Positions 6,008-50,988 of a DNA stretch of 64,000 nucleotides are shown piece by piece. Within the stretch, counting starts at the first letter, position 1, and every line of letters begins with the position of its first letter. The position numbers were made by a program, and so were the translations under genes. The notes beneath the pieces were generated by a model, which was not told where the DNA came from, searched no databases, and saw only the letters and a list, made by a program, of their open reading frames with translations. Source of the DNA: Desulfobacula sp. (GTDB taxonomy: Bacteria > Desulfobacterota > Desulfobacteria > Desulfobacterales > Desulfobacteraceae); NCBI GenBank assembly GCA_018645325.1, contig JABGOU010000013.1:1-64000 (forward strand), in the 5' to 3' direction.

Positions 6008-6143
6008 GTAATTGTTCAGCCCGTTTAAAAAAGGTATCTTCAAAGCCCTGTCTGATGGATATTTGTAGGAGGTTAAGCGTTTAGCATCGAACCGAAATAT
6101 CCATCAGACAGGGCGGTTTCAAGCGTAAGAGCTGAATAATTAC
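6008..6143. mobile_element. IS66-type MITE, copy 1
   Basis: A 136-bp element bounded by GTAATTGTTCAGC and GCTGAATAATTAC (13-bp terminal inverted repeats, one mismatch). An inner perfect 20-bp inverted repeat lies at 6045-6064 and 6095-6114 around a 30-base loop containing AGGAGGTTAAGCG. The flanks CCAACCTT and AAAATCTT match at five of eight positions, perhaps a decayed 8-bp target duplication. It encodes nothing. It lies between alr and a sensor kinase and may act as a terminator-like hairpin for alr. Confidence 0.85.
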
Positions 6144-6303
6144 AAAATCTTGTTTGAATTTTCAAATTTGCTTTTAAGATTCACTTTGCAATAAAGATTT
6201 ATCTATTATAGGATGATTTTTATTAAAATTAATAGAAATATTAAGCCCTTCCGGCAATCTTATGGTTTGGGAATGGATCAGATAAAATTTATAACAGGTT
6301 GTG

Positions 6304-8544
6304 ATGGAAAAAAAATATTCATATTTCGAAAAAATTAAATGCTTACCATCTGTCCTGTTTGAAAAAATGCTTCATATGGGCAAAGAAGAGATTGAAAGCC
6401 TTTCTTATTGGCGCGCACGAATCCTGTTTTCAATTCTTTTTCCAGGTGTATTGATCGGCCTCTTTATTTTTATCTTAGCCATTCCAATGCTGATTAAAAA
6501 CAACCTCATGAATTTGCTGATTTTTTATGCAATCGCCTTGATAATGAGTGTTTTTCTTTTGATTTCTGCCCATATTAGCTTTGCTGTTCGCGCAGCAATC
6601 ACTCTCATAATTGTATATGGTGTTGGTTTGACAATTATTATTTTTACAGGTCCTTTAAGCGGTGGACCAGCATGGCTGTTTTGTTTTTCAATTTTTACAG
6701 GAATTTTATTGGGCTCACGAGCTGCTCTTACTGCTGTTTTAATAAATGCAATAACCTTATCAATTATCAGCTATTTCATGATTAACAAAAATTGGGGCCA
6801 GTCCTTTCCTTTTTTTGTCTCTCCACAACGAATGTATTTAGCAGGGATTAGTTTTCTGTTTTTAAACGCTCTTTTGGCTATTTGTGTATCTGTTGTTGTT
6901 AAAGGCGTGACACGATTCCATGAAAAAGAAAAAAACCTGGCAAGATCATTAAAAAAAGAACAAGCACGATTAATAGCAGCTAAAAATAAACTGGAAAAAG
7001 AATTTCAGGACCGCATACACAAAGAAAATGAATTGTTTGATAGTGAAAAAAGATTCCGCATGCTCTTTGAAGAGGCGCCGGATACAATCTTTATTATAGC
7101 TATGGATGATCGGATAATTGACGCCAATAAAACTGCGACAAAGATGCTCGGCTATGTGCGGGAGGAATTCCAGACAATGACCATAGCTGATATTCAAGCC
7201 CCGGAAGTGCGTGGCAAACCAGGAAGCATCATTCAAAACAGGCTGACCCAGGGGTCCTTTTTTGAGGCTTTGGATATACACAAGAACGGTACTATTGTGC
7301 CAGTTGAGGTCCACCATCACAGAATGCGTATTGAAGAGGAGGACATCGTTCTATCTGTGGTACGGGATATCACGGAGCGCAAACAGGCAGAAAAGGAAAA
7401 AAGAGAATCTCAAAAAATCATAGGCGAACATAAAAAACTTGCTTTTGTCGGGCAGATAGCCGGGAAAATAGCCCATGATTTCAATAATATCCTGGGCGTT
7501 ATCATGGGAAATACAGAGCTTGCACTTATGGATTGCAAGGAGACTGAAACAAGAAAAACACTTGAATTGATTTTTAAACAGACCCTTAGGGGCAAAAACT
7601 TAACAAGAAATCTTGTTGCCTTTGCAAAAGATCAGGAACCAAAACAGGAGTTTTTCAGAATAAGTGACAAAATTGACCTGGTTATAAATCTTTTAAAAAA
7701 GGATCTGGACGGCATAGAGGTTATCAAGGAAAACAAACCCGGCGTACCGGAAATGCTTGCTGATCCGGGAATGATTGAACACGCCATTGTCAATCTAATC
7801 CAAAATTCAATCCATGCCACAAGCATTAAAAATAATCCCTGCATTATTCTTAGGACATATAATTCAGATGAAAACATATGTTTTGAAATCCAGGATAATG
7901 GATGTGGAATTCCCAGAAAACATCTGGCAAGAATTTATGAGCCATCTTTCACCCTAAAGGGAACCCGGGATGTGACAGGCTCATATAAGCCCGGTATCAA
8001 GGGAACGGGCTATGGCATGGCAAATGTAAACAAATATATTGAACAGCATAAGGGTCTTCTCCAGGTTGAGTCTGAAATTGACAAAGGTACAAAATTCACC
8101 ATCTCCATGCCCATCATCAAAAAAGAATTAACAATTAAGGAAAAAAAAGAAATTCAGAACAGCACCACAGCTTTTGAAAAGTATATCCTTCTTACGGAGG
8201 ATGAAAAGGCAATATCAGATGTGCAATACGGGATATTAACCCAAGAGCCCTGTAATCACAGGGTTGATAAGGCTTTTAATGGGCAGGCTGCATTGGATTT
8301 GTTTAAAAAAAATAATTATGACCTGGTAAGCCTTGACTATATTCTTCCTGGAAAAATAAATGGGATGGATGTATATAATCATATAAGAGAAAATAACAAA
8401 ACCATTCCCATCCTGTTTATTTCCGGCAATATTGAATTTTTAGAGTCCATAAAAGAGTTAAAACAAAAAGATGCTCATATGGATCACCTGTCAAAACCCT
8501 GCCGGAATAAGGATTATCTTAACCGGATAAACCAATTGCTATAA
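6304..8544 (+). CDS. membrane-bound PAS hybrid histidine kinase
   Basis: A 746-residue signalling protein. The N-terminus has about six membrane helices (residues 40-205), then a coiled coil, and a PAS domain (about 245-365, ending SVVRDITERKQAE). The kinase core has H-box KIAHDFNN (H391), a short N-box region (NSIHATS), G1 DNGCGIP and G2 GTGYGMANV. The C-terminus is a receiver domain with the phospho-acceptor in SLDYILPG (about D678) and the lysine in LSKPC. There is no output domain or partner regulator next to it, so the downstream target is unknown. The start is GTG ATG at 6301/6304; the ATG is used here. Confidence 0.88.
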   Translation: MEKKYSYFEKIKCLPSVLFEKMLHMGKEEIESLSYWRARILFSILFPGVLIGLFIFILAIPMLIKNNLMNLLIFYAIALIMSVFLLISAHISFAVRAAITLIIVYGVGLTIIIFTGPLSGGPAWLFCFSIFTGILLGSRAALTAVLINAITLSIISYFMINKNWGQSFPFFVSPQRMYLAGISFLFLNALLAICVSVVVKGVTRFHEKEKNLARSLKKEQARLIAAKNKLEKEFQDRIHKENELFDSEKRFRMLFEEAPDTIFIIAMDDRIIDANKTATKMLGYVREEFQTMTIADIQAPEVRGKPGSIIQNRLTQGSFFEALDIHKNGTIVPVEVHHHRMRIEEEDIVLSVVRDITERKQAEKEKRESQKIIGEHKKLAFVGQIAGKIAHDFNNILGVIMGNTELALMDCKETETRKTLELIFKQTLRGKNLTRNLVAFAKDQEPKQEFFRISDKIDLVINLLKKDLDGIEVIKENKPGVPEMLADPGMIEHAIVNLIQNSIHATSIKNNPCIILRTYNSDENICFEIQDNGCGIPRKHLARIYEPSFTLKGTRDVTGSYKPGIKGTGYGMANVNKYIEQHKGLLQVESEIDKGTKFTISMPIIKKELTIKEKKEIQNSTTAFEKYILLTEDEKAISDVQYGILTQEPCNHRVDKAFNGQAALDLFKKNNYDLVSLDYILPGKINGMDVYNHIRENNKTIPILFISGNIEFLESIKELKQKDAHMDHLSKPCRNKDYLNRINQLL

Positions 8545-8656
8545 AAAAAATCCTGCTTTTATACCCAGGCATTCCCTATAAAATTTTTAACCTGATTCCG
8601 GGAAAATCCTTTGAAACAATACCAGTGGTAGAGCTGGTAAAAGTATTGAAACAAAT

Positions 8657-9160
8657 TTAAAACGGCCAGAAGCTGTTGTCATTCCATATGTTTTCAATCA
8701 ATGATGCTTCAAGGGCCATAAGTTTTTTTAAATGGGTTTTTTCCCAAACAGAAAGCCAGTGGTACATTTTTTTTTCTTCGGGATCAATGGCTTCTTTCTC
8801 CCTTTCACTATACATTTTAATAGCTTTTTGTTCAAAACTTATGGCTGCGGTAATTGCAGTGGCTTCAAAGCTGGCTGCATTGATTTTGTCTTTTAAACTT
8901 TCATCAAGAATATCCGGAGCTGTTATGGCTCCTCCATCATTTTCAAAACCGCCTGCCATGAATTTGCCATCTTTCATCAAGGCTTTAAACTGTTTTTCCA
9001 GAATATTCATGTGTTCTAGTTCATCATTGGCAAGATCTTTAAAAAAGTCTTTGACAGCTTCATCTTTTGCATGATCCATTGCCTTTTCATAAAGGCTTTT
9101 GCCTTTTCTTTCTATGAGGAATGCATTTTTTAAAATGGTTAAAGTGTTTGATTTGTCCAT
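8657..9160 (-). CDS. ferritin-like (rubrerythrin-type) diiron protein
   Basis: A 167-residue four-helix protein. Carboxylate/histidine ligands appear as LIERKGKSLYEKA in helix 1, DELEHM in helix 2, SFEQKAIKMYSERE in helix 3 and VWEKTHLKKL in helix 4, the E...EXXH pattern of ferritin-like diiron proteins. It lacks the C-terminal CXXC rubredoxin domain of classical rubrerythrin. Such proteins in anaerobes are linked to peroxide or oxygen defence, but the exact reaction is not shown here. AGGAGA lies upstream of the ATG. It is convergent with the preceding kinase gene. Confidence 0.8.
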   Translation of the reverse strand: MDKSNTLTILKNAFLIERKGKSLYEKAMDHAKDEAVKDFFKDLANDELEHMNILEKQFKALMKDGKFMAGGFENDGGAITAPDILDESLKDKINAASFEATAITAAISFEQKAIKMYSEREKEAIDPEEKKMYHWLSVWEKTHLKKLMALEASLIENIWNDNSFWPF

Positions 9161-9311
9161 ATTTATTCTCCTGTTTCAGGTTGAAGGATAAAGGCAGTAA
9201 AAATAAGATACCATGATGTTATAGGAAATATCAAGACGACATAAGATTTGAATTGCTGTATAATCGGTAAAATTGTTGAATTGGCCGGCTTAAAGAAAAG
9301 CGGCAAAGAAT

Positions 9312-10223
9312 TTATTCAGATTCAGATTCCGGATAAACCATTTTACCGGTATAGGACAAATCATAACCACCGAATTCTTTTGCAGTGGCTTGAATCACCT
9401 TTCCTTTTAACAAAGATAGAAAAAGCTGAATTCCCTTATCAAAAAATCTATCTTTATGAATTAAAAAATCAAAGCGTTCCCAGCAAATTGGAATAAAATC
9501 AAGTCCTAAAATAGTTGCAACCGGTCTGATACCTGGACCGGCATCGACTCGTTCAGCCAAAATCTGTAATCCAACATCCATGTGTTTAGGCAAATTATTC
9601 TCATATCCATCTATGGCTTCGCCTCGTACTCCTGATGCTTTCAATTCTTTATCAAAAAGCTGCCGGGTACCTGTACCCAACTGCCGGTTTATGATTCTGA
9701 TACCCTGTTTGCCAAGATCTTTTACAGACCGGATGTTTTTGGGGTTCTTTTTTTGGATCATGATGCCCTGTTCCCGCAAACAAAAATTCACCACTGCCGG
9801 CATCTGGTTCATCTCGTCTTTTAAAAAAGGAAAATTATACTCTTCGTTGTCTGAGATAAGGTGACTTGCGGCAATGTGGCAGAGATCCTGCTTTAAGGCT
9901 TTCAATCCTCCCATGGAGCCGGCAATACCGAACATGGCCATGTGCTTTTCATGCTTGAGATTAAAGGTTGAAATAATCCTGTCCAATAATAAATCATTAC
10001 TACCGGCAATGAGAACAAGTCCATGATAAGGAGGAAGTTTAGCAAGTTGAGGATAATTTTGTGTGCCGACTTCTATCCACCGGCGAACCAGATCTATGGG
10101 AAAAAGCCATTTCCCCGTTACTTTTGAGGCGGGAAGACCTTTGTCAGCAATAAGTGAATATATCATTTTTTCATTTACATTTAAAAACTTTGCAGCTTCT
10201 TTTGTTGAAAGCATTTCACTCAT
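9312..10223 (-). CDS. HTH regulator with periplasmic-binding-like ligand domain
   Basis: The first about 55 residues (LSTKEAAKFLNVNEKMIYSLIADKGLPASKVTGKWLF, abbreviated) form an excisionase/MerR-type HTH_17 DNA-binding domain. The rest (about residues 65-300) is a cytoplasmic substrate-binding-protein fold of the PBP-like family (PF12727), with the hallmark GTGTRQLFD near residue 180. This architecture occurs in regulators that sense molybdate/tungstate or related small ligands. The ligand here is not known. GGGAGG precedes the ATG. It lies 20 bases downstream of aroK on the same strand, suggesting one transcript. No molybdate transporter is adjacent, though mobB lies 3.5 kb away. Confidence 0.78.
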   Translation of the reverse strand: MSEMLSTKEAAKFLNVNEKMIYSLIADKGLPASKVTGKWLFPIDLVRRWIEVGTQNYPQLAKLPPYHGLVLIAGSNDLLLDRIISTFNLKHEKHMAMFGIAGSMGGLKALKQDLCHIAASHLISDNEEYNFPFLKDEMNQMPAVVNFCLREQGIMIQKKNPKNIRSVKDLGKQGIRIINRQLGTGTRQLFDKELKASGVRGEAIDGYENNLPKHMDVGLQILAERVDAGPGIRPVATILGLDFIPICWERFDFLIHKDRFFDKGIQLFLSLLKGKVIQATAKEFGGYDLSYTGKMVYPESESE

Positions 10224-10242
10224 TTCAAGGCCTCCCTTTATT

Positions 10243-10746
10243 TCAATATAAAGATGTCACTGCTTGTTCAACGACTTGTTCTGCCGTCATTGAGCGGCAA
10301 TCGATTTTTATGTCACAATATTTATCATATAAGGGTGTTCTTTCTTTGTAAAGGTCCACTATCTTCTGGCCGGGCCTGACTGCAACTCCCCGGGATTTAA
10401 TATCAGAAAGTCTTGTTAAAAGCATATCCAATTGAATGGAAAGATAAATAATTCTACTGATTTCACCAAGATGTCCCATGGCCTTTTGGCTGTAGACAAC
10501 GCTGCCGCCCGTTGCAATCACATGATTTTGGCACCTGATACCGGCAACATGTCTTTCTTCAATCTGTAAAAACCGATCAAGGCCTTTTTCAAAAATAATC
10601 TGGGAAAGTGTTTTTTGTTCTTTTGATTGAATTAAATCATCTGAATCAAGAAACTCAAATCCAATGTTTTGAGCTAATAAATTTCCGACTGTACTCTTGC
10701 CAACCGCAGGCATTCCAATTAATACGATATTTTTTTTAGTTTTCAT
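10243..10746 (-). CDS. aroK: shikimate kinase
   Basis: It phosphorylates shikimate at O3 with ATP in chorismate synthesis. The P-loop GMPAVGKST, shikimate-binding FLDSDD and GGSVV, and the lid region RGVAVRPG are all visible. Starting at the methionine of MKTKKNIVLIG gives 167 residues and the usual N-terminus. An upstream ATG at 10779 would add 11 residues (MELLQNIKKKL) of low complexity; neither start has a clear ribosome binding site. It precedes the HTH/PBP-like regulator. Confidence 0.85.
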   Translation of the reverse strand: MKTKKNIVLIGMPAVGKSTVGNLLAQNIGFEFLDSDDLIQSKEQKTLSQIIFEKGLDRFLQIEERHVAGIRCQNHVIATGGSVVYSQKAMGHLGEISRIIYLSIQLDMLLTRLSDIKSRGVAVRPGQKIVDLYKERTPLYDKYCDIKIDCRSMTAEQVVEQAVTSLY

Positions 10747-10988
10747 CAATTTTTTTTTAATATTTTGCAACAACTCCATTTATAAGACAACAAAATTTAA
10801 AAAAAACAAATACTATCCTTTTTTTATTAATGCAAGAAAAAGCATACCCTAAATTTGCTTGAAATGGTATATATCGATTTTTTTAGAAGCATTCAAGATG
10901 ACAATGATTATTAACGATATTTTGGAATCTGACCTTGCGCCTGTTTCATTTTGGTATAAAACAATTATTCAAGATTGATAAGGAATGT

Positions 10989-12209: not shown

Positions 12210-12272
12210 AATGACACAAAATTGATTTTAAAAAACCTGTTCGAGCTTTTCCCTTGTTTCCTTTAATTTTTT

Positions 12273-12402
12273 GTAATTATTCAGCCCGGTAAAAAAAATT
12301 ATCCCCAAAACCCTGTCTGATGGATATTTGCAGGAGGTTAAGGGTTCACTCAAAAATATCCATCAGACAGGGCGGGTTCAAGCGCAATAGCTGAATAATT
12401 AC
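12273..12402. mobile_element. IS66-type MITE, copy 2, with perfect target duplication
   Basis: A 130-bp copy bounded by GTAATTATTCAGC and GCTGAATAATTAC, which are perfect terminal inverted repeats. It is flanked on both sides by AATTTTTT (12265-12272 and 12403-12410), a perfect 8-bp direct repeat. It keeps the inner inverted repeat (CCCTGTCTGATGGATATTT against its complement) and the AGGAGGTTAAG loop. It sits inside the remains of a PAS kinase gene. Confidence 0.93.
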
Positions 12403-12427
12403 AATTTTTTTAGAATTTTATGCGTTC

Positions 12428-13063
12428 CTATATGTCCCTGACAAGCCCCCTGGCTCCATCTATTTTCTTGTCATTATCTAATAGCTGAGAAAAAGATATC
12501 TCAACATTCTTTCGTTCCCCGTGTTTGAGTTTAAATTTACATTTTAATTTACCGGAGCGTTCCTCATTATGTTTAATTTTATTAAATAAAGCTTTAAAGT
12601 TGGGAATGTATTTTTCTTCAATATGGGATATAATATTAGTGCCGATGATTTCGCTTTCCTTGCATGCAAGAAGGGTGCACATGGAATTATTAATAAGTTT
12701 GAACTGCCCGTTAATATTGATTTCATAGTACCCTTCTTCAATATTTTCTAAAATAATACGGTATTTTTCTTCGGTTTTTATAAAATTTTCTTCTGCCTGT
12801 CTCCGTTTTTTTATATTTGAAGAAACATGGGAACCAAAAACAATCAACAATGTACTTCCAAACAATTGTTCATAAAATTGAAGATCGGTTCCCAGCACAA
12901 GCAATCTTAAGCTCAAATCCGGGGAGTCCAAAAAACGGATCAACACACTAAAAAACCAGAAAAAAATGGCTGCACCAATAGCAAAAGCAATTGTCGAATC
13001 TCCTATTCTTTCATCAATAGTCTTTTTTTTATTCCAAAACCTTTCATCATAAATGATGGCCAT
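12428..13063 (-). pseudogene. PAS-domain membrane sensor kinase remnant
   Basis: The 211-residue frame has two membrane helices (about residues 25-75), a coiled coil and one PAS domain (about 90-211) ending GARGLVRDI. The usual continuation of such PAS domains is TERK plus a coiled coil. Here the codon after DI is TAG, followed by GAA CGC (E R), ATA AAA TTC and TAA. On the far side of the repeat element, about 12231-12264 on the minus strand encodes LKETREKLEQVF, a typical post-PAS coiled coil, in a shifted frame. The gene is thus a decayed kinase with two nonsense codons, a frameshift and an inserted MITE; the kinase core is gone. The short membrane-PAS product might still be made. Confidence 0.7.
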
Positions 13064-13219
13064 GCTTTCTCCTAATTTTTTAACTTTTCAATTAAAATAG
13101 TATGATTTAAGAGCCTATAATTCTAATAATTTCATTAATATTAAAGCTGATCCCTATTTTGTTTTGACAAGAGCAAAAGTGAGGCAATCATTGATAGCAT
13201 AATAGATATAAACATAACT

Positions 13220-13354
13220 TTAATTGTTCAGCCCGTTAAAAAAAATTATCCCCAAAGCCCTGCCTGATGGATGTTTGCAGGAGGTTAAGCGAATAGCCTC
13301 TAAACAAATATCCATCAGGCAGGACGGGTTCAAGCGCAATAGCTGAATAATTAC
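13220..13354. mobile_element. IS66-type MITE, copy 3
   Basis: Same orientation as copies 1 and 2. The left end has lost the first G (TTAATTGTTCAGC); the right end is intact (GCTGAATAATTAC). The inner stem reads GCCCTGCCTGATGG against CCATCAGGCAGGAC. The T-A pair of other copies is replaced by C-G on both arms, a compensatory change. The loop keeps AGGAGGTTAAGCG. No perfect 8-bp target duplication remains; AACTT occurs at both borders. Confidence 0.85.
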
Positions 13355-13617: not shown

Positions 13618-13661
13618 TATTTTTAGGCAAAATTTAATATGAGGCTGGAGAAACCATACAC

Positions 13662-16185: not shown

Positions 16186-16228
16186 GTAATTATTCAGCTC
16201 TTACGCTTGAACCCGCCCTGCCTGATGG
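16186..16228. mobile_element. IS66-type MITE, copy 4, truncated, inverted
   Basis: One end of the element in the opposite orientation: GTAATTATTCAGC, then CTTACGCTTGAACCCGCC, then CTGCCTGATGG. Sequence identity to the other copies ends at 16228, in the middle of the inner stem, where an unrelated structured segment starts. The second half of the element is missing. Confidence 0.8.
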
Positions 16229-17840: not shown

Positions 17841-17951
17841 AAACCGCCCTGTCGGATGGATATTTTTTTTCGATGCTAAACGCTTAACCTCCTGCAAATA
17901 TACATCAGACAGGGCTTTGAAATAATTTCTCTTAACGGGCTGAACAATTAC
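17841..17951. mobile_element. IS66-type MITE, copy 5, inverted and 5'-truncated
   Basis: This copy lies in reverse orientation. The inner stem (GCCCTGTCGGATGG... with ...ATACATCAGACAGGGC) contains mismatches, and the loop reads CGCTTAACCTCCT, the complement of AGGAGGTTAAGCG. The outer right end CTGAACAATTAC is kept, while the left terminal repeat is missing. It starts eight bases after the stop codon of the LarA-like gene. Confidence 0.8.
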
Positions 17952-22461: not shown

Positions 22462-22465
22462 CTTG

Positions 22466-26978: not shown

Positions 26979-29900
26979 TTATTGTGTCTCTTTCACTCTT
27001 TTGTGTAAATGCCGGATACGCCGACTTAATACCGAACAAATCTGAAGGGCAATCCTTGGATACGCCATGACGGTTTCTTTGAATTCTCGTTTATGAAGAA
27101 TTAAAAATCTCGATTTCTTTGTGGTTCGTATGGTGGCAGAACGAAGTGAATTATCTATTAGAGCCATTTCTCCAAATGCTCCTCCTGGGTCAATTTTATC
27201 AATGATCACCTGTTTTTCATCGGGCAGTTCCATGATAACGTCTACCTCTCCATCAATAATTAAAAATACGGTTTCACCTATATCGTTCTGCTTTATGACA
27301 GTTTTTTCGGCGGGATAGTCAAATTCTTTTGTGACTGAAGCAATGGTTGCAAGCTCAATGACATTGAGTCCTGAAAATATTTCTATTTCTTTTAAAAGAA
27401 GCAGTTTGTCTGCAAAGAATAATTCAGTGCCATGTTTTATGGCATTTTTTGAGTCTTTGTTCTTTTTCCTAAGCGTCATTTTTACTTCTTCTATAATAAT
27501 ACGGTTATTTGATGCTTCCAGTTTCTCCAGCAGTTCATGACCTTCAAGAAGAGAGGGATGATCCTGGGCCAGGCTCAGTCCCATTAAAACATCCACCCAG
27601 TCTTCTGATGATATCAGGGTGATAAATACCTCTTTTCCATATCTGTCAAATCTTGGAATTTTTGTTACTTTTTTCCCTTCTGCCAATGCCACAGTCAGGT
27701 TGGGACTTTCAAGCAAAGGCAGCATGGTATTAAAAAGTTTCTTATCTAAAATATCGCTCAAAAGTTCAATAGCATTGGCTCTTTGACGGGTATCAGGTGA
27801 AAAGATCCCTCTCCAGGCGGTTCGCATACGTCCTGTCTGGTCATGAATTGCAAGAACTCTGATAATATTTTCAAGTTCTAATTCTTTTTTCTGAACCAAA
27901 TGTTCCATGACCTGATTTCTGAATCTGCTTTCAGGCAGATTCTCAAGATGATGGCTCATGGCAATGTAATTATAACAAGTTTTCAAATGCTCTTTCACAA
28001 ATATAAACACATCAAGGTCTTTAATATCAAGCATCTCCAGCAATTCAAACAATTCTTGACGAATATGGGTGGAAGGAAATGCCAACGATTGAATCAAAAG
28101 TTTATTATTTTCATAGATTGATTCCCGAATTTTCTTTTTTCCGAGTTCCCGTATGGTTTTAGAACGGTCTCCCAGCAAAAGTACTGCCTTTAATAATGTG
28201 GGTTCATCCTTAATTTCAAATGCATCCAGGGCAGTGAATCTTATTTCTTCTATCTCATTGGACAAAAATTGCATCACCATATGGTTTAAGTTATCTGCTT
28301 TAAGTCTGGATAATGCAATAATAGTGTCTGGAATTAAAGGTTCCAAACCATCCTGATACAAAATATTTTCTAAAACCGGAATATAGTCAATTTTCCCGGT
28401 TAGGCCTGCACTGATAATACCTGATTTGCGTAATTCCATATTTTTTGATAACACCATTTTATTAATAATTTTTTCATATTCAACAGAATTATTAAAATAC
28501 ATGCAGCCAATGGCAAATCCCCTGACAACCGGATTTTCATTATTTTCAAACAGCTTTAAATCTATTTTTTTGACATCTTCAAAGCGATGCAGAACTGCAA
28601 GCTTTAAAATGGCAATGGTCAGTTCAGTCTTTTTGGGGTCTAATAAATTTAAAATCTGATCCCTTGAAGTCCTGAAAAATTCTGGAGAAAGCATCTTTAC
28701 CAACGCAATTTTTGTGAGATCATCTTGATTATTAATATTTGTGAGGATGATGGCATCAAAATCATCAATTGAGAAATTGTTTAAAAGTCTTGCATACCAG
28801 ACAGCATCATCCCCTTTTGCAGATAAAAAAGATTTTTTGAGTTCATCTAATGCCGTTCCCTCTTTAAACACCTGAATCAGTTCTTCAGGATCAAGCCTCT
28901 TTAAATCCAACAGATTGTTAGCAACAAGGTCCTTTAAAATCTTGGCGTATTTATGCTTTAAGAGAACTGATGCTGCTATCCAGGTGATCAAAAAAGGTAA
29001 TGCGACAAGGGTCAGGTATCTGGGATGTATATGGTTCTGAGAAAAAAGAATTAGCCCCGAGCTTAATAGAATTGCTGCTCTCACAACGGTTCCTTTTAAA
29101 AAAGGACGGATCATTCGTTTGTATGATAGAGGGAAAAGCCCTATCAAAATTTCTTTGGAGGGCAGCCAAATAGTGGTTTTGATAATGTTAGTTGATATCC
29201 TGGCATACATGGCTGAAAACATGCCAAAATTTAGCAGGAACCCAAAAAGGGCAATAATATAGTTAAAAGGATGAAACATCAAAGCGACAGGCAGTCCCCA
29301 TCTTCCATAAATTCTACCAACAAATAAAAGAATTAAAAGGTTGATGATATTAAGCCATCCTCTGAAATAAGCAAAAAACCGAAGCATATCGGTTTCAGAA
29401 GCAAAATAATCATTAATGGCGTAGTAAAACTGGTAGTTCATGATGGTGAGAATCACATTGGGCATAAAGTTTAAAATCAGTACGATTTTTAAAAGTGTTG
29501 ATTTTTTTAATAAAGGGAGGATGGTTTTGAACTCTTCGGCCATGGAAGCTTTTTTCTTTCCTGTCTCTTTTTTTTCTCCAGAAAATACAAGTGCGGAAAA
29601 TTGTCGCCCCATCATTTCGACCAGAACAGCTCCCATAAAGGTAGTAGCCGTATAAAGATATAAAAGATTATCTAATGAAAAAGCACGGTCAAAGAATCGG
29701 GTGCCAAAGCTGCTTATAATCAATCCGAGCACACCGCCTGCCGATAAAAGGGTAAACAACCGTTTTGATTGCCGAGTGTTAAAAAAATCACTGGCAAGAT
29801 TCCAGAACAGCAGAGCCTGCAGCAATTCAAATTGATTTTTAAGCATAAACAGTATCGGGTAAATAATTTCGAATCCAAGAGGAATCAGTATTCTTACAAT

Positions 29901-30188
29901 AACCACACTGATACCGCTGAAAAGAAACAAGGAAGATAAGAGTCGGATGCCTGTCACTTTGCTCATAAATACTGTTAAAAAGCCGGTGACAACAAAAGTC
30001 AGTATGGAATTAATCATAGTGACAATGGGCAGAAATTCAACTCCGTATCGTTTTAGAAAAGCAGTTTCAGCAAAATTATTCAGTATCATGCCCGAGCTTC
30101 GGACAAGGAAAAGCAAGGCGGTTGTCCACAACAGCAGACTGACCTCGTCTTCATAAACTTTCAATAATGAAAGTACCTTTTGTCGCAT
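26979..30188 (-). CDS. transporter-like membrane protein with HEAT repeats and cNMP-binding domain
   Basis: A 1069-residue three-part protein. The first about 440 residues hold about twelve membrane helices of the NTP/NDP-exchange (TlcC-like)/MFS type. Residues about 440-900 are predicted HEAT-like repeats (for example VRGFAIGCMYFNN, TIRELGKKKIRES). Residues about 925-1050 form a cyclic-nucleotide-binding domain with phosphate cassette FGEMALIDNSLRSATI, whose E and R residues are conserved for cAMP/cGMP binding. A GAGG lies seven bases before the ATG. Nucleotide transport is not shown; the membrane part may only be structural or sensory. Its neighbour, the cyclase, is an obvious candidate source of ligand. 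Confidence 0.8.
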   Translation of the reverse strand: MRQKVLSLLKVYEDEVSLLLWTTALLFLVRSSGMILNNFAETAFLKRYGVEFLPIVTMINSILTFVVTGFLTVFMSKVTGIRLLSSLFLFSGISVVIVRILIPLGFEIIYPILFMLKNQFELLQALLFWNLASDFFNTRQSKRLFTLLSAGGVLGLIISSFGTRFFDRAFSLDNLLYLYTATTFMGAVLVEMMGRQFSALVFSGEKKETGKKKASMAEEFKTILPLLKKSTLLKIVLILNFMPNVILTIMNYQFYYAINDYFASETDMLRFFAYFRGWLNIINLLILLFVGRIYGRWGLPVALMFHPFNYIIALFGFLLNFGMFSAMYARISTNIIKTTIWLPSKEILIGLFPLSYKRMIRPFLKGTVVRAAILLSSGLILFSQNHIHPRYLTLVALPFLITWIAASVLLKHKYAKILKDLVANNLLDLKRLDPEELIQVFKEGTALDELKKSFLSAKGDDAVWYARLLNNFSIDDFDAIILTNINNQDDLTKIALVKMLSPEFFRTSRDQILNLLDPKKTELTIAILKLAVLHRFEDVKKIDLKLFENNENPVVRGFAIGCMYFNNSVEYEKIINKMVLSKNMELRKSGIISAGLTGKIDYIPVLENILYQDGLEPLIPDTIIALSRLKADNLNHMVMQFLSNEIEEIRFTALDAFEIKDEPTLLKAVLLLGDRSKTIRELGKKKIRESIYENNKLLIQSLAFPSTHIRQELFELLEMLDIKDLDVFIFVKEHLKTCYNYIAMSHHLENLPESRFRNQVMEHLVQKKELELENIIRVLAIHDQTGRMRTAWRGIFSPDTRQRANAIELLSDILDKKLFNTMLPLLESPNLTVALAEGKKVTKIPRFDRYGKEVFITLISSEDWVDVLMGLSLAQDHPSLLEGHELLEKLEASNNRIIIEEVKMTLRKKNKDSKNAIKHGTELFFADKLLLLKEIEIFSGLNVIELATIASVTKEFDYPAEKTVIKQNDIGETVFLIIDGEVDVIMELPDEKQVIIDKIDPGGAFGEMALIDNSLRSATIRTTKKSRFLILHKREFKETVMAYPRIALQICSVLSRRIRHLHKRVKETQ

Positions 30189-43964: not shown

Positions 43965-43966
43965 TT

Positions 43967-44008
43967 CCCCCGCCATTGGGATATCCAAATGGCAGGGGAG
44001 ACTTTTTT
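43967..44008 (+). terminator. rho-independent terminator, probably bidirectional
   Basis: CCCCCGCCATT (43967-43977) pairs with AATGGCAGGGG (43988-43998), and TTTTTT follows at 44003-44008. It lies between the HD gene and the convergent acyl-CoA dehydrogenase gene. Confidence 0.8.
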
Positions 44009-44023
44009 GCTATTTTGCCCGGT

Positions 44024-45835
44024 TTAGTCAAAAGAAGCTTCATCCATGGTCAAGGCGGCATCTGAAAGGGCCTGGACAGAAGCCATTCTTCCCATGGTTA
44101 CTGGCAACACAGCCTCCATATAGAACCTTGCACAGGTCACAATCCCTTTATAAAAGGCCTGATTTTTTTGACCGGTATTTTTTTTAAGGGCATTTACAGC
44201 TGTAAGTGCCCGCCACAAATGCATCCATCCCATAACCACGTCCCCGGTTGCTTCCAGAAAAGGATGGGCATGGGCAAATGCTGAGGTATATTTTTCAGAC
44301 ATGGCAGCACCCCCTATACTCAGAGCGGTTATACCAAGGGCTTCAACCGCTTTGGCAAGGGAATCCGACATAAATTCCAATGATTCTATTTTTTTTGCAT
44401 CTTTAATAGTCTTGCCCATTTCATTTAGAAGGCCTTTAAATACCAGACCCTTTTTCATGCCCAGCTTGCGTACCAGAAAATCCATGGCCTGGATACCATC
44501 CGTTCCCTCATAGATGGAGGCTATTTTCACATCCCTGACCAATTGCTCCACTGGAAATTCCTTTGTATATCCATATCCGCCAAACACCTGCACGGCCTGG
44601 ACACAAACCTCAAACCCCCGCTCGGCACAACAGGACTTGATCACGGGGGTCAAAAGTTCGATCATATCTCCTGCCAGCTCCCTTTGGGTTTCATCAAAAG
44701 CATTTTCTTTCTTGTCAAAGCACAGAGACACATAATAAACAAGGCTTCTCATCCCGTCCACATGGGCCTTCATCCAGGTGAGCATCCTTCTTACATCCGG
44801 GTGGCGTATAATTGGGATGGATTCAGCCTCTGGATTCCTGCTTTCTGCCAGGTCTTTGCCCTGGACCCTGTGTCGAGCATAATCAAGAGCATATAGATAG
44901 GCAAGTGATGCTGTGGTGCTGCCCTGGAAACCAACGCTGAGCCTTGCCTCATTCATCATGTGGAACATGATTTCAAGGCCTTTGTTTTCTTCACCCAGAA
45001 GAAATCCCCGGCATTCTCCCTTTGAACCCAGAGCCATTGCGCAGGTGGCAGATCCATGGAATCCCATTTTTTCTTCAATTCCCACACACTGAATATCATT
45101 ATGTTTTCCAAGGGTTTTGTCTTTATTGACCCAGATTTTCGGGACAATGAAAATAGAGATCCCCCGGCTGCCTTTGGGAGCGCCTTCAATTCGTGCCAGG
45201 ACCGGGTGAATGATATTATCAGCCAGGTCATGTTCACCAGCAGTGATAAAAATTTTATTTCCAATAATGGAATACGTATTGTCATCATTTTTCCGGGCCG
45301 TTGTTGTGATGGCACCAACTTCCGTTCCTGCCTCAGACTCGGTCAGGAGCATGGTACCGGACCATCTGGATGTATACAGATTTTCAACGAACATTTTTTT
45401 TAACGTGTCCGTTCCAAAGAGTTCAATCATTTTCCCCGTGCCATGGCCCATATTGATATACCCGCTCAAGGAATAATTAGCGCCCACAATATAATCCAGG
45501 ATGGCAATACTGATCAGAAAAGGTAAACCCTGGCCTCCCCACTCGGGATCTTCCATGGTAGATGTCAGGTCTGATTCCCGCAGCACCTTTCTGGCCCTGT
45601 GAAAGGAATCAGGCACCATTACTTTTCCATTTTCAAACCTCACCCCCTGTTTGTCTCCATCTCTCAGGGTGGGTAAAATTTCTTTGATCGCCACTTTCCG
45701 GGCTTCGGAAATAATCATGCCAAAAATTTTTTTTGAAAACCCTTTATATTTTTTATAGGTCAATAATTCTTCAGCATTGAATTGTTCATAAAGAATGAAT
45801 TCTATTTCTTTTTGATCCGCAATAAGTTGAGCCAT
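44024..45835 (-). CDS. acyl-CoA dehydrogenase (large, FadE-like)
   Basis: A 603-residue flavoprotein of the long acyl-CoA dehydrogenase type. Core motifs are MLLTESEAGTEVGAITT, the FAD/substrate loop EEKMGFHGSATCAMALG, and VQAVQVFGGYGYTKEFPVEQLVRDVKIASIYEGTDGIQ near residue 430. An additional C-terminal domain (PF12806-like, about residues 470-600) follows. It catalyses alpha,beta-dehydrogenation of an acyl-CoA and passes electrons to ETF, whose genes lie at the head of this operon. AAAGGAA precedes the ATG. Confidence 0.93.
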   Translation of the reverse strand: MAQLIADQKEIEFILYEQFNAEELLTYKKYKGFSKKIFGMIISEARKVAIKEILPTLRDGDKQGVRFENGKVMVPDSFHRARKVLRESDLTSTMEDPEWGGQGLPFLISIAILDYIVGANYSLSGYINMGHGTGKMIELFGTDTLKKMFVENLYTSRWSGTMLLTESEAGTEVGAITTTARKNDDNTYSIIGNKIFITAGEHDLADNIIHPVLARIEGAPKGSRGISIFIVPKIWVNKDKTLGKHNDIQCVGIEEKMGFHGSATCAMALGSKGECRGFLLGEENKGLEIMFHMMNEARLSVGFQGSTTASLAYLYALDYARHRVQGKDLAESRNPEAESIPIIRHPDVRRMLTWMKAHVDGMRSLVYYVSLCFDKKENAFDETQRELAGDMIELLTPVIKSCCAERGFEVCVQAVQVFGGYGYTKEFPVEQLVRDVKIASIYEGTDGIQAMDFLVRKLGMKKGLVFKGLLNEMGKTIKDAKKIESLEFMSDSLAKAVEALGITALSIGGAAMSEKYTSAFAHAHPFLEATGDVVMGWMHLWRALTAVNALKKNTGQKNQAFYKGIVTCARFYMEAVLPVTMGRMASVQALSDAALTMDEASFD

Positions 45836-45875
45836 GTTCTTTCCTTTCTTAAGCTTAAAATATCCATTAAAAAAA

Positions 45876-46943
45876 TCACAAATCAGATGATTCTATTAGC
45901 TTGAGAGCTGTTTTTTCAAGGTTTATAACCGCAAAAATCAACAGGGCAAACCGCTTGTTATTCGTTATCTTGTGAAAAAAGCGGTAATAAATCTGCTGGG
46001 CAATTACCGCCAGCCGGAACAGACCAAAACAATAATAAAAATCAAAATGCCTCGTACTCCTGCCAGTTTGTTTTTCATATTGATCCAGTATTTCCTGCCG
46101 TGTCAGAGCACCTTCCATATGGGTGGGCATGGTTCGCATCACCTGCATGTGTTCAGGATCATTTTTTTCCACCCAATAAGCAAGTGAGTTGCCCAGGTCC
46201 ATCAAAGGATCACCACAAGTGGTCATTTCCCAGTCAAGGACACCAATAATTTTTCCAGGGTCGGCAGGGTCCAGAACCACATTATCAAACTTATAATCAT
46301 TGTGTACAATGCAAGGGTGATCCGTATCCTTTGGCTTTTTGTCCCCAAGCCAGTCCATGATGGGTTCAAAATCCGGTGCATCATCTGTTTTTGCCCTGCG
46401 ATACCGGGCTGCCCACCCTTCCACCTGTCGTTGAACATACCCTTCAGGTTTTCCAATAAAATCCAGACCTGCTTTTTTTATATCAATGGCATGGAGATCT
46501 GCCAGAAGATTTGTGAGCGCCCTGCAAAGGTTTTCTGCCTGGTCCCTTGAAAAACAAAGACCTTTGGGCATGTCTTTTCGAAGGATGATACCGGATAATT
46601 TTTCCATGACAAAAAAAGGGGCTCCGATAATTGATGTATCGTCAGTATATGCCAGGGGCTCCGGGCAGTAAGGAAATACGGGGTACAATGCTTTAAGCAC
46701 ACGGTATTCGCGTCCCATGTCGTGCCCTGCCTTTACCATGGCACCAATGGGGGGTCGTCTCAGCACCATCTTTTTACCCCCTATATCAATTAAATAGGTC
46801 AGGTTGGAAAATCCTCCTGGAAACTGGGTTATGACAATATTACCTTTAAGACCATTTATATTCTCATGCAAAAATGTTTTTACCCTGCCAGGGTCAATTT
46901 CCTCTCCAGGTCTGATAGTTCCTGCTTTGTCTGTTACCTGCAT
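45876..46943 (-). CDS. phosphotransferase-family (APH-like) protein
   Basis: A 355-residue protein kinase-like fold of the aminoglycoside-phosphotransferase type. Catalytic loop CIVHNDYKFDNVVL and metal-binding VLDWEMTTCGDPLMDLG are intact. The same module is fused to acyl-CoA dehydrogenase in ACAD10/ACAD11, where it phosphorylates 4-hydroxyacyl-CoA. Its place between two acyl-CoA dehydrogenase genes makes that role likely here too, but this is inference. GAGGAAG precedes the ATG. Confidence 0.87.
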   Translation of the reverse strand: MQVTDKAGTIRPGEEIDPGRVKTFLHENINGLKGNIVITQFPGGFSNLTYLIDIGGKKMVLRRPPIGAMVKAGHDMGREYRVLKALYPVFPYCPEPLAYTDDTSIIGAPFFVMEKLSGIILRKDMPKGLCFSRDQAENLCRALTNLLADLHAIDIKKAGLDFIGKPEGYVQRQVEGWAARYRRAKTDDAPDFEPIMDWLGDKKPKDTDHPCIVHNDYKFDNVVLDPADPGKIIGVLDWEMTTCGDPLMDLGNSLAYWVEKNDPEHMQVMRTMPTHMEGALTRQEILDQYEKQTGRSTRHFDFYYCFGLFRLAVIAQQIYYRFFHKITNNKRFALLIFAVINLEKTALKLIESSDL

Positions 46944-46998
46944 GACTTCTTCCTCTTATGTTGGCCTGCATGTGTTGATGGCATAATCATCCTTTGCT

Positions 46999-47685
46999 TC
47001 AGGCGCAGCCTTCCTGTCCCGGAGCCAGGCAGAAGGCTTCCACAAGCCCCATCAAATGACCGGCAAACTGATCTACTGATATGTTTAATTTTTTGTATTT
47101 CCACCGTTTTAAATACCATTCCTGCTGCATGGCCTTGATCATACTGGCTGTCAATTCATGGTTTCCGGGTTTGAAAACGCCTTGCTTTTCTCCCTCCACA
47201 AGAATATTTGTAAGGATTTTCTGGGTATGATCTTCCATGGATTTGACCGCCTTAATATTCCGGGCTTCCATAAAGGTAAAATAAAACCAGGGCCGGAATA
47301 ATTCAGATAGAAAAACATGGGCTTTGATCACAGCCTTTAACCTTTCCCAGGGATTATTATGACTTTTTAAAACCTTTTCAAGATCTTTTTTTATAATAGA
47401 CCATCCCTGGATCTGTATAATATCCTGAAGATCTTCTTTTCCTTTGAAATAGGCATACAAAGACCCCAGACTCATACCGGTTTTCTGGCTTAAAGCACGC
47501 ATACTCATGGCTTGAAAGCCCTTTTTATAGGAAATATTGAAAACAGCATTAAAGATTTTTTCCAAATTGTTTACAGCGGTTTTTTCTTTTTTAATCAGAA
47601 TTATTCCTTTATTGTTACGATACACCTCCCGTGAAATATCCCTGTTTGAAACTTCATATATTTTTTTAAACTCTTTGTAATCCAT
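46999..47685 (-). CDS. TetR-family transcriptional regulator
   Basis: A 228-residue repressor. An unusually long N-terminal extension (about 40 residues) precedes the HTH (AMSMRALSQKTGMSLGSLYAYFKGKEDL). The rest is a helical ligand-binding domain. Lying inside the acyl-CoA oxidation operon, it probably responds to an acyl-CoA and represses the etfB promoter, where a GAACGTTC site overlaps the -35 region. GAGGAA precedes the ATG. Confidence 0.88.
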   Translation of the reverse strand: MDYKEFKKIYEVSNRDISREVYRNNKGIILIKKEKTAVNNLEKIFNAVFNISYKKGFQAMSMRALSQKTGMSLGSLYAYFKGKEDLQDIIQIQGWSIIKKDLEKVLKSHNNPWERLKAVIKAHVFLSELFRPWFYFTFMEARNIKAVKSMEDHTQKILTNILVEGEKQGVFKPGNHELTASMIKAMQQEWYLKRWKYKKLNISVDQFAGHLMGLVEAFCLAPGQEGCA

Positions 47686-47711
47686 CTATATTTCCTCAAA
47701 AATCATTGTAA

Positions 47712-48914
47712 TCATTTTACTTTCCCATATGTTTTTAAAATCCGTTTTGCCAGAGAAATTTTATGGACCTCGTCTGCACCATCATAAATCCGGGCTGCCC
47801 GTTCATGACGATAAAAATAGGCAAGGATGGTATCATCGGTCATTCCAAGGCCTCCATGGGCCTGAAGCGCCCGGTCCACAATTTTATTCATGGTGTTGGC
47901 AACCACAAACTTGATCATGGAAATGGAATCCCTGGCCCGGGAGGCACCCATGGTATCAATCTGCCAGGCAGAATTAAGGGTCAAAAGCCTTGCTGCCTGC
48001 ATCTCGGCTGCAGATTCTGCAATCCAGTTTTGAATAGTCTGTGTATTACCAAGAGTTTTCCCTGAAGGAGAAATCACCCTTTCCCCGGCCCTTTTACAAA
48101 GAAGATCAAAGGCCCGCCTGCAGATGCCCAGCCATCGCATACAATGATGAATCCTCCCTGGTCCCAGCCGGTCCTGAGCAATAATAAAGCCCTGGCCTTC
48201 AGGTCCCAGCAGATTTTTTTGTGGCACCCGGCAGGACTCAAACAAGATTTCACCATGGCTTGAGTAATCACTGCCTGCATGGCCCATAACAGGAATATTC
48301 CTCACATGGTTAAACCCTTTTGCAGCTGTTGGGACGATAATCATGCTGGCCTTAAGATAATTGGATGCCTCAGGATTGGTGACGGCCATGACAATGGCAA
48401 AATCTGCCCCATCCGCTGCCGTGGTATACCATTTATGACCATTGATGACGTATTCGTCTCCATCCTTTACGGCAGTGGTTTCCAGCATGACTGGATTGGA
48501 TCCCGGCATGTCCACCTCCGTCATGGCAAAACAGGACCGGATGTCTCCTTTTACCAAAGGATTAAGATAACGTTGTTTTTGTTCGCAAGTTCCATGGAGA
48601 TGCAGGATTTCAACATTGCCAGCATCCGGGGCCTGGCACCAGAATACATAATGACCCAGGGGAGAACGTCCCAGAGCCTCGGATACAAGACCGTGCTCAA
48701 GAAGTGAAAGTCCCATTCCCCCGCACTCAACCGGAAAATTGGGGGCCCAGAGTTCCATTTTTTTTACCAGGTCCTGTTTTTTTTTGAGTACTGGCAAAAG
48801 GTCTTTAAAATCCTTTACCAGAAATTGGGGTTCAAGAGGTATGAGTTCTTTTTCCACAAATTCATTGATCATATCCACAATGATCTGAATCTTATCTGAA
48901 ATCTTAAAATCCAC
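47712..48914 (-). CDS. acyl-CoA dehydrogenase (400-residue type)
   Basis: A standard-length acyl-CoA dehydrogenase. Visible motifs are RSCFAMTEVDMPGSNPVMLET, EYVINGHKWYTTAADGADF, GPGRIHHCMRWLG, and the FAD-binding QAHGGLGMTDDTILAYFYRHERAARIYDGADEVH. The GTG start at 48914 has AAGGAG in ideal position. It follows etfA directly on the minus strand. The substrate is not determined; branched or aromatic acyl-CoAs are possible. Confidence 0.92.
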   Translation of the reverse strand: MDFKISDKIQIIVDMINEFVEKELIPLEPQFLVKDFKDLLPVLKKKQDLVKKMELWAPNFPVECGGMGLSLLEHGLVSEALGRSPLGHYVFWCQAPDAGNVEILHLHGTCEQKQRYLNPLVKGDIRSCFAMTEVDMPGSNPVMLETTAVKDGDEYVINGHKWYTTAADGADFAIVMAVTNPEASNYLKASMIIVPTAAKGFNHVRNIPVMGHAGSDYSSHGEILFESCRVPQKNLLGPEGQGFIIAQDRLGPGRIHHCMRWLGICRRAFDLLCKRAGERVISPSGKTLGNTQTIQNWIAESAAEMQAARLLTLNSAWQIDTMGASRARDSISMIKFVVANTMNKIVDRALQAHGGLGMTDDTILAYFYRHERAARIYDGADEVHKISLAKRILKTYGKVK

Positions 48915-48925
48915 TAGTATCTCCT

Positions 48926-50029
48926 TTATTCCTTTTTTGTATGCAGCTCTTCGTCTCTAATGACCCGGCTTTTTATTTTACCCATATTTGATACAGGATC
49001 AGACTCGAGTAATTTTGTGTCAACCAGATTTAAAAAAGCATGGATAAATTCAATTACATCCTCTGTAATGCACAGGTCTGAGTATCGGGATATGGGGGCT
49101 TTATAGTTTTTATTGATACTTATTACAAATTTGGCATCCTTTATACCGGCGATATGCTGGGATGAGCCTGAAATGCCACAGGCAATATAGACTTTAGGAG
49201 CAATAGTTGTACCTGTGATACCCACCTGGTGCTCATACCCGATCCATCCCATGTCAACCAGAGGCCGGGAAGCACCCACAGCTGATGAAAAAAAGCATTT
49301 CGCAAATCTGAACACTATATTCAGATTTTTTTCTTCTCCCAGGCCTCTGCCGGCGGCCACAACGACTTTTGCCACTTTCAGGGCCTGGTTTTCACAGGAT
49401 CTTTTTAAAACCTGCTGATGTTGGATACGACTTTTATCGCCGGAGCCGCAATTAAAAAAAAATTTTCTAATATCCACCTGACCCGGTTTCCCGGATTTAT
49501 GGATATAAGGCTTGAACACCCCGGGCATAAGGGTCAGCATAACAGGTCTTTTTGGGTCTGGTTGTACAAGCATATTTTTCTTATTGTTAAACACGGAACG
49601 CGAATAAATCAGCCCTTTTTCATCGGATCCAATGCCGTTGACTCCTGGTATGGACGCGGCTTCCAGCCCCAGGGCAAGGCCCGGGGCAAAATCGCGTCCC
49701 TGGGAAGTATGGGCTGCCAGTATATGTGAGGGATTCATTTTTCTGATCAGCTGCCCAAGGCAGGCAATATAAATTTCACTGGTATAGGTTTTAAGTTCGG
49801 GTATCTCAAGTCCTATGATGTTCAAGCTGGTTTGTTTTAAAAATTCTTTTACCAGGGGTTTTGGGTTGTCTGAAGGAATAATGATATAAACATCCGGGGT
49901 ATTGATATCAGAAGATTCTTTTTTTTGAGAAAAATCAGCCTTGATTTGAAGGGCTGCAGCAGCAAGTTCCCAGGTCACCTTTCGTACCCTGTTTTCAAAA
50001 ATCTCTGCAATTACCAGTATCTGCTTCAT
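48926..50029 (-). CDS. etfA: electron transfer flavoprotein alpha subunit
   Basis: The FAD-binding subunit of ETF, 367 residues. Domain II shows GRGLGEEKNL, SSAVGASRPLVDMGWIGYEHQVGITGTTIAPKVYIACGISGSSQHIAG (abbreviated) and INKNYKAPISRYSDLCI, the FAD site. It overlaps the etfB stop by four bases (ATGA), so the two are coupled. It takes electrons from the adjacent acyl-CoA dehydrogenases. The usual membrane ETF oxidoreductase is not in the window. Confidence 0.94.
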   Translation of the reverse strand: MKQILVIAEIFENRVRKVTWELAAAALQIKADFSQKKESSDINTPDVYIIIPSDNPKPLVKEFLKQTSLNIIGLEIPELKTYTSEIYIACLGQLIRKMNPSHILAAHTSQGRDFAPGLALGLEAASIPGVNGIGSDEKGLIYSRSVFNNKKNMLVQPDPKRPVMLTLMPGVFKPYIHKSGKPGQVDIRKFFFNCGSGDKSRIQHQQVLKRSCENQALKVAKVVVAAGRGLGEEKNLNIVFRFAKCFFSSAVGASRPLVDMGWIGYEHQVGITGTTIAPKVYIACGISGSSQHIAGIKDAKFVISINKNYKAPISRYSDLCITEDVIEFIHAFLNLVDTKLLESDPVSNMGKIKSRVIRDEELHTKKE

Positions 50030-50763
50030 ATCAGATCTTTTTTCCTTAAAAAAGAAAACAATTGCTCTGCTTTATCAGATAAAGATCCTTCCAATAAACG
50101 GCCGGACCTTGTTTTTTCAGGGTCTTGCATACCTGCAAAAGATTCTCTTGCACGGACAGGCGTGGGAAAAAGATCAGCTTGTGCAAAGGTTATGATCTGT
50201 TTTTGGTTTGCTGACAGCATATTGGACAGGCAGGGATACCTGGGATTATTGATACCGGCTTGAATGGTCAACACAGCAGGCAGCCGTATCGCAATGCAGT
50301 CCCGGAATCCGTTTTCCATCTCCCGTTCAACTTGCATTATATTGTCCGTGGTTGGCAGGGTGGTTTTTATCACACCAGTGGCACAGGGCATGCCCAAAAT
50401 TTGGGCCAGCATGGGACCGGTCTGTCCTGCCATCATATCCTCTGACATAATCCCTGCCAGGATCAAGTCATATGGTATTTTTCCGGCCACTGCCGCCAGC
50501 ATGGAAGCCGTCACAAAAGAAGAATCATATCCTGAATCTTCTTTAACAATATGATATCCCCTGTCAGCCCCCATACCAAAGGCTCGTCTGATTATTTTTT
50601 TGACCCCGGATGATCCGGCCGTTACTATGTCCACAGAAACCGGCTCCATCATTGCGGCACTAAATTGTTCTTTTAACAAAATGGCCTCTTCAAGGGCATG
50701 CGCATCAAAAAGATTCATCTCCCCTTCATCACCCACCTGTTTTATACAGACCAGAATTTTCAT
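50026..50763 (-). CDS. etfB: electron transfer flavoprotein beta subunit
   Basis: A 245-residue subunit beginning MKILVCIKQVGDEGEMNLFDAHALEEAI, the EtfB N-terminus. It contains ILAGIMSEDMMAGQTGPMLAQILGMPCATGV, the AMP-binding signature region. It heads the operon etfB-etfA-acd-tetR-phosphotransferase-acd. The C-terminal arm is somewhat divergent (RSGRLLEGSLSDKAEQLFSFL). Confidence 0.92.
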   Translation of the reverse strand: MKILVCIKQVGDEGEMNLFDAHALEEAILLKEQFSAAMMEPVSVDIVTAGSSGVKKIIRRAFGMGADRGYHIVKEDSGYDSSFVTASMLAAVAGKIPYDLILAGIMSEDMMAGQTGPMLAQILGMPCATGVIKTTLPTTDNIMQVEREMENGFRDCIAIRLPAVLTIQAGINNPRYPCLSNMLSANQKQIITFAQADLFPTPVRARESFAGMQDPEKTRSGRLLEGSLSDKAEQLFSFLRKKDLI

Positions 50764-50788
50764 ACCCCATAATATCCCTGGGATCTTA

Positions 50789-50820
50789 TTATATCAATAA
50801 AAAAAAGAACGAACGTTCAT
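50789..50820 (-). promoter_or_regulatory. etfB promoter with palindromic TetR-type operator
   Basis: On the minus strand a TATAAT hexamer (within 50789-50796) lies about 27 bases before the etfB ATG. Just upstream, at 50807-50818, lies GAACGTTCGTTC, whose GAACGTTC (50811-50818) is a perfect palindrome in the -35 position. Occupation would block RNA polymerase. The TetR encoded in the operon is the natural candidate. Confidence 0.5.
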
Positions 50821-50874
50821 ATTTAAAAATCGAGACTGGTTCTCAAAAATAATTTATGCCAAGTTTCTTACTTC

Positions 50875-50988
50875 GTAATTGTTCAGCCCGCTAAAAAAAG
50901 TTATCCCCAAAGCCCTGTCTGATGGATATTTGCAGGAGGTTTAGCATCGAAACAAATATCCATCAGACAGGGCGAGCTGAATAATTAC
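50875..50988. mobile_element. IS66-type MITE, copy 6, with perfect target duplication
   Basis: A 114-bp copy bounded by GTAATTGTTCAGC and GCTGAATAATTAC and flanked on both sides by CTTACTTC (50867-50874 and 50989-50996), a perfect 8-bp duplication. The inner stem is perfect. Compared with other copies it lacks about 15 bases between stem and right end (GGTTCAAGCGCAATA) and has a shortened loop (AGGAGGTTTAGCATCG). Its end supplies the TAA stop codon of hisHF. Confidence 0.95.

Follow-up and report, generated by a model that had tools for sequence, protein, structure and literature searches.

Six related non-coding copies of a short repeat lie between positions 6008 and 50988 of the 64,000-nucleotide Desulfobacula sequence analysed here (referred to as the window). 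The repeat raises two questions: what kind of element it is, and what has moved it. The first-pass annotation took it for an IS66-type MITE mobilised in trans.

All six places noted in that annotation hold real copies, and four of these are two-ended. The copy at 16186 is a fragment, and the copy at 17841-17951 is without one terminus. The coordinates are listed in Table 1. Direct reading of the sequence bears out the perfect 8-bp repeats reported for copies 2 and 6, and both octamers (AATTTTTT and CTTACTTC, respectively) abut the element borders exactly. No duplication had been claimed for copies 1 and 3, and neither has one.

Table 1. Copies of the element and their target duplications in the window.
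Feature	Position	Strand	Description
Copy 1	6008..6143	+	Full, 136 bp; both 13-bp ends exact; without 8-bp duplication
Copy 2	12273..12402	+	Full, 130 bp; AATTTTTT on each flank
Copy 2, left 8-bp target duplication	12265..12272	.	AATTTTTT
Copy 2, right 8-bp target duplication	12403..12410	.	AATTTTTT
Copy 3	13220..13354	+	Full, 135 bp; left end starts with T, not G; without 8-bp duplication
Copy 4	16186..16228	-	Fragment of ~43 bp, right end only; compared with the consensus by eye
Copy 5	about 17841/17845..17951	-	Left end kept, right terminus missing; inner boundary approximate; compared with the consensus by eye
Copy 6	50875..50988	+	Two-ended, 114 bp, internally shortened; CTTACTTC on each flank; empty site in a congener
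Copy 6, left 8-bp target duplication	50867..50874	.	CTTACTTC
Copy 6, right 8-bp target duplication	50989..50996	.	CTTACTTC

The window belongs to an assembly (G000) of 4,385,846 bases (4.39 Mb) in 157 contigs that is approximately 90% complete. A genome-wide search for the terminal repeat, as the first-pass annotation had proposed, returned 198 exact occurrences of the 13-bp end GTAATTRTTCAGC, compared with 0 for the reversed-pattern control. The location of 196 of the 198 was established, in 136 places. The 130 places outside the window were fetched and analysed together with the window. Two ends were paired when they lay 55-320 bp apart with no more than three mismatches per pair, which gave 101 pairs. 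One chance pair in the window (45763-46007) was removed, leaving 100 two-ended copies. A recount by genome coordinate gave 197 distinct exact ends and no doubled pairs.

An exact 8-bp target duplication is present at 63 of the 100 two-ended copies; 500 shuffles gave a mean of 0.8-0.9 and a maximum of 4. The number rises to 86 with up to one mismatch (control 3.0) and to 95 with up to two (control 11.7). Flank lengths of 2 to 14 were tested, and a length of 8 alone deviates from shuffled pairing. The duplicated octamers are AT-rich, with a start that favours A and an end that favours T, and all 100 flank pairs are distinct. The duplication is thus found well beyond the two copies first noticed, and a lack of it elsewhere in the genome is what the first-pass annotation had held would tell against its reading. 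Several contigs of the assembly terminate at this repeat (for example, C32, C138, C141, C149, and C153), which the element now accounts for to the benefit of annotators.

A consensus of 135 bp was built from 94 copies of 125-140 bp. The identity of these copies to the consensus ranges from 84.7 to 99.3%, with a median of 95.6%. The element has 13-bp terminal inverted repeats (GTAATTRTTCAGC), is shorter than about 300 bp, and lacks a transposase gene. It is dispersed in high copy number, makes a duplication of constant length (8 bp), and has an empty site for copy 6, described next.

Comparison of filled and empty sites, another check proposed in the first-pass annotation, was made across the genus and for the copy 6 insertion only. 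A search with the region 50300-51600 gave a match in 24 of 26 genus genomes, its own included; the match in G011 is to the element itself only. Nineteen loci were checked against a model of the empty site, and 11 were aligned around it. In congener G014 (locus L191) both flanks are conserved, a single CTTATTTC is present, and the element is absent, which makes this an empty orthologous site. In most of the other aligned loci the gene side aligns to the border and the opposite side is diverged. One of the 11 loci (L205) has a few bases that align inside the element region, and this was taken as alignment noise.

A gene with GATase and His_biosynth domains has copy 6 at its 3' end. The terminal repeat of the copy provides the stop codon of that gene, and the protein ends in KIEVR followed by the stop. 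In the modelled empty site, the gene reads three codons further. Single copies could affect neighbouring genes. No cellular function was detected for the element, which looks like a molecular parasite.

Related copies occur in few other genomes. A 130-nt copy used as query matched 7 of 58 genomes, its own included, among the best 15 or fewer candidates per genome. In that search, full-length matches are present in four MITE-bearing genomes (G000, G014, G021, and G011), and short matches of 24-33 nt in three (G004, G008, and G013), those of G013 and G004 being of 24 nt only. At the level of the order, the consensus matched 3 of 389 sampled genomes and 1 of 150 genera among the best two candidates per listed genome; G021 is absent from the genomes listed there. 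The inner 21-mer was not found as an exact match in viral contigs, copy 2 was not found in plasmids, and a scan of viral contigs with one protein of the window gave no match.

The copies in the other genomes carry the same duplication. Nineteen loci were fetched from G014, 1 from G011, and 20 from G021, a genome with 40 exact ends. Exact 8-bp duplications flank 14 of 17 copies in G014 (shuffled mean 0.88), counted without L248 (short flank) and L259 (identity below 75%). In G021 the count is 11 of 18 loci (shuffled mean 0.53), taken without L277 and L278 and with the poor alignments L275 and L279 kept and scored as misses. The one copy fetched from G011 has an exact duplication as well. Two G021 loci (L264 and L271) match G000 at 100% identity across 200 bp of flank per side and may be mis-binned contigs; without them, the G021 count is 9 of 16. 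One further pair (L265 and L159) has 88% in common across 145 bp of flanking DNA, which lies on different sides of the element in the two loci.

The repeat is a MITE: a DNA element of 135 bp that is non-autonomous, is bounded by inverted repeats of 13 bp, and encodes no transposase. The transposase that moved it was looked for among its relatives. A PF03050 profile search of the 26 genus genomes gave a match in 15. In G001, an intact element of 1759 bp lies at positions 757-2515 of locus L022, with ends GTAATTATTCAGC and GTAACTATTCAGC and the target duplication TATAATTT. It has a single ORF of 471 amino acids that matches NF033517 (transpos_IS66) with 290.8 bits, the cut-off being 180, and also PF03050. 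The first-pass annotation had tied its reading to an IS66 element with similar ends in the genome or in relatives, and the G001 element is one, complete with 8-bp duplications. The single ORF and the ends suggest a place for this element in the ISBst12 group, because ISDge4 of Deinococcus geothermalis, a member of that group, has the same type of ends (GTGACTACTCAGCA/GTAACTGCTCAGCA), a single ORF, and an 8-bp repeat in the available text of its description (PMC12898284).

The G001 element is itself repeated. G001 contains 21 exact ends, all of the form GTAATTATTCAGC (20 beyond that of L022) and all with IS-type interiors; 11 are left ends and 10 are right ends of L022-like copies. One of the right ends (L213) is IS-like for about 23 bases only. 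Six left-right pairs in the right orientation have a common 8-bp duplication, compared with a shuffled mean of 0.07 and a maximum of 2 in 2000 shuffles. In 18 of the 21 ends, 113-133 bases remain to the contig end, the pattern to be expected when an assembly breaks at a repeated element. Homologous transposases of 80-82% identity are present in G001 again, in G013, and in G004 (a fragment). A transposase identical to that of L022 is also found in the record 'MAG: Deltaproteobacteria bacterium isolate GH13'.

Several features connect the MITE with this element. The ends of both start with GTAA, and both make 8-bp duplications. The left end of the L022 element is identical to the MITE right end (GTAATTATTCAGC) over 13 bases, and the usual MITE left end (GTAATTGTTCAGC) is one base away from it. 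Many of the copies in G014 have the right end GTAACTATTCAGC, the same as the right end of the L022 element. Together, the 8-bp duplications, the copies in congeners, the empty site, and the G001 element with matching ends make the repeat a MITE that most likely owes its mobility to an ISBst12-type transposase of the IS66 family. We hold it to be highly probable, from these sequence comparisons, that an IS66-type (ISBst12-like) transposase is the mover, past or present. An IS66 DDE transposase of the ISBst12 branch would recognise the GTAAYTRTTCAGC ends in trans and would insert the element by way of 8-bp staggered cuts.

Other families, IS6 and IS256 for example, also make 8-bp duplications. 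The MITE might have been moved by such a transposase, with its IS66-like ends a product of convergence, and the four MITE-bearing assemblies yielded no IS66 element with ends that match. This is improbable. Convergence would have to account for a MITE right end that equals not only the left end of L022 but all 21 exact G001 ends, for a left end one base off, and for the many G014 copies that end as L022 does. It would also have to account for the same duplication length and the same AT-rich targets in the MITE and the G001 element, and for the ends and 8-bp repeat of ISDge4 (PMC12898284).

Mobilisation by an IS66-type transposase leaves the whereabouts of the partner to be considered. Matches to an ISBst12-type transposase number 0 in G000 and 0 in G011, and those in G014 and G021 are distant only (28% and 30% identical, respectively). 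In G000, PF03050 is represented only by fragments on C106, a stretch with eight loose GTAA ends of 3 mismatches each and no convincing pairing. An intact partner was not found in this assembly, which is about 90% complete and in 157 contigs. The reading of the first-pass annotation is supported by the 8-bp duplications at most copies and by an IS66-family element with the same ends and duplications in a congener; mobilisation in trans is its probable part, as the search of the same assembly gave no intact IS66 element that matches.

The ends tell the same story. In G000, 191 of 197 exact ends examined (from 198) are MITE-type, and the remaining 6 have less than 75% identity over the next 40 bases, none resembling an IS end. 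Among 49 GTAACT-type ends listed in the four MITE-bearing genomes, 30 were inspected; 26 of these are MITE-type, 3 are of another type, and 1 is too short. One of the non-MITE ends (L281 in G014) comes closest to the left end of the IS, at 57%, which was taken as chance. No stubs of a G001-like element at contig ends are present among the inspected G000 ends. Conversely, the MITE query gave no match in G001, and no full MITE was found in the IS-bearing congeners G001, G013, and G004, among the best 15 or fewer candidates per genome.

An alignment of the MITE with the L022 element shows only the terminal repeat and short chance matches. An origin of the MITE by internal deletion of an L022-type element is thus not supported. 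Mobilisation in trans by this kind of partner is what we infer. Against a simple account of it, no IS with these ends was found in any of the four MITE-bearing assemblies, no full MITE was found in the IS-bearing congeners, and the MITE and the IS have only the terminal repeat in common. Given an assembly without a match to the transposase, inspected ends of which none is convincingly IS-type, and unlike interiors, the partner may be missing from the assemblies, may have been lost from the MITE-carrying genomes, or a relative with the same ends may have served.

It is conceivable, though we lean slightly against it, that this is an IS66-linked MITE of more than 100 copies that has only the 13-bp terminal repeat in common with the one transposon found to match it, and that it survives as an orphan in species without that transposon while relatives carry the transposon without the MITE. 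In that case an ISBst12-type transposase would need no more than the 13-bp end for recognition.

The fold and the gene context bear on a different origin, in which the cell retains the copies as REP/BIME-like hairpins or as regulatory RNA hairpins such as terminators or mRNA stabilisers. The interior holds a perfect 21-bp inverted repeat enclosing 27 bases, and the consensus as RNA has a very stable predicted fold (-63.2 kcal/mol). The copies are also mostly intergenic. By a simple ORF heuristic applied to the 99 of 100 copies whose flanks were long enough (raw counts throughout), 88 lie between ORFs, 3 fall within a modelled ORF, and 8 have an ORF to just one side. The 88 comprise 47 in tandem, 21 in convergent, and 20 in divergent gene pairs, and in tandem pairs the element runs along the left-hand gene 25 times and opposes it 22 times. 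No marked preference for gene pair or orientation is seen, which speaks against this origin. The copies occupy AT-rich sites, mostly between genes, and carry 8-bp target duplications; the gene context fits insertion with selection against gene disruption.

The stem itself gives little sign of covariation. Standard pairs occupy 5930 of 6312 stem pair cells (129 copies, four genomes), and two-sided changes occur in 13 of the 6312, too few to show selection on the stem as RNA. An Rfam scan of the window gave no family at gathering score, and neither compensatory change nor a known RNA family points to a REP/BIME or regulatory RNA. With most copies flanked by 8-bp duplications and an empty site in a congener, a terminator, REP, or RNA element as the origin is largely refuted, and we consider it very unlikely.

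That the six copies are chance or unrelated AT-rich repeats is effectively impossible: such DNA contains many loose matches to the 13-mer (50 in the window with up to 3 mismatches, 38.2 expected, 2 of 100 shuffles reaching 50) and would not have been decisive, the decisive observation being exact, paired ends, and the exact-end count, the 8-bp duplications, and the recurrence of the whole 135-bp element at a median identity of 95.6% rule this out.

As a MITE probably mobilised by IS66, the element provides a case from that family with many copies. Its 100 two-ended insertions, together with the identically ended IS of a congener, could reveal the minimum of end sequence that an IS66 transposase needs. 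The system could also show how such an element persists after its partner is gone.

MITEs are a known kind of element, reported with IS982 (PMC9769881), IS1182 (PMC11578231), and other families, and the present family is new as far as the available text of these sources extends. No IS66-linked MITE was found in the open-access papers searched, to the extent of their available text; subscription journals and ISfinder lay outside that search. MITECca01 goes with ISCca4 of the IS982 family (PMC9769881), MITEPye1 with IS1182 (PMC11578231), and MITEPsy3, 102 bp in length, with ISPsy25, listed as IS630 (PMC6053426). All three are short and gene-less like the present element, and two of them have a high copy number. 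MITECca01 and MITEPye1 have terminal inverted repeats (PMC9769881, PMC11578231), and MITEPye1 has a long stem-loop fold (PMC11578231). They differ from the present MITE in that their transposase families are other than IS66. MITECca01 differs further in that it retains a little sequence of its parent IS, which is intact in the same genome (PMC9769881).

The MITE resembles the ISBst12 group, as described for ISDge4, in its GTAACT..TCAGC-type ends and 8-bp direct repeat (PMC12898284). The single transposase ORF of that group is found in the congeneric G001 element, whereas the MITE is 135 bp long, is without a transposase gene, and has an interior unlike that of the congeneric IS. The G001 element is unlike the MITE in its length of 1759 bp, and its 471-aa transposase, and it was not found in the MITE-carrying assemblies. 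It is like the MITE in its AT-rich 8-bp duplications and in a left end that is the MITE right end over 13 bases.

Among the loci L282-L310, with ends GTAACTATTCAGC, there is apparently a second MITE subfamily. These copies have the right end GTAACTATTCAGC, and the inner sequence GCCCTATCCGATGG is often present. Copies ending in GTAACTATTCAGC were found in all four of the MITE-bearing genomes.

Copy 6 (50875..50988, plus strand) adjoins a GATase/His_biosynth gene on the minus strand. The stop codon of this gene comes from the copy 6 terminal repeat (50985-50999), which leaves the modelled C-terminus 3 residues shorter. The large ORF of the window is listed in the table below; a scan of viral contigs gave no confirmed relative.

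Coordinates and content of the large ORF and the further IS66-type element
Feature	Location	Description
1069-aa ORF	window, 26979-30188	Pfam: C-terminal cyclic-nucleotide-binding domain only
Further IS66-type element	G021, L034 1335-2897	1563 bp, 475-aa open frame

Two MITE copies of G021 (L264 and L271) have 200-bp flanks on each side that are identical to those of two copies (L058 and L129) of G000, the assembly of the window. G021 and G000 are different species-level genomes, and mis-binning of the contigs concerned is possible.

In the congener G001, the single-ORF IS66-family element is present in multiple copies (L022 and L210-L230). This element breaks the assembly 113-133 bases inward from 18 of the 21 exact ends. 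The MITE-bearing G021 also carries an IS66-type element (L034), which has ends GTAATCGTTCACG/GTATTCGTTCACG and the target duplication AAAAAAGG. Compared with the MITE left end, one of its ends has 3 mismatches and the other 4 over the 13 bases.
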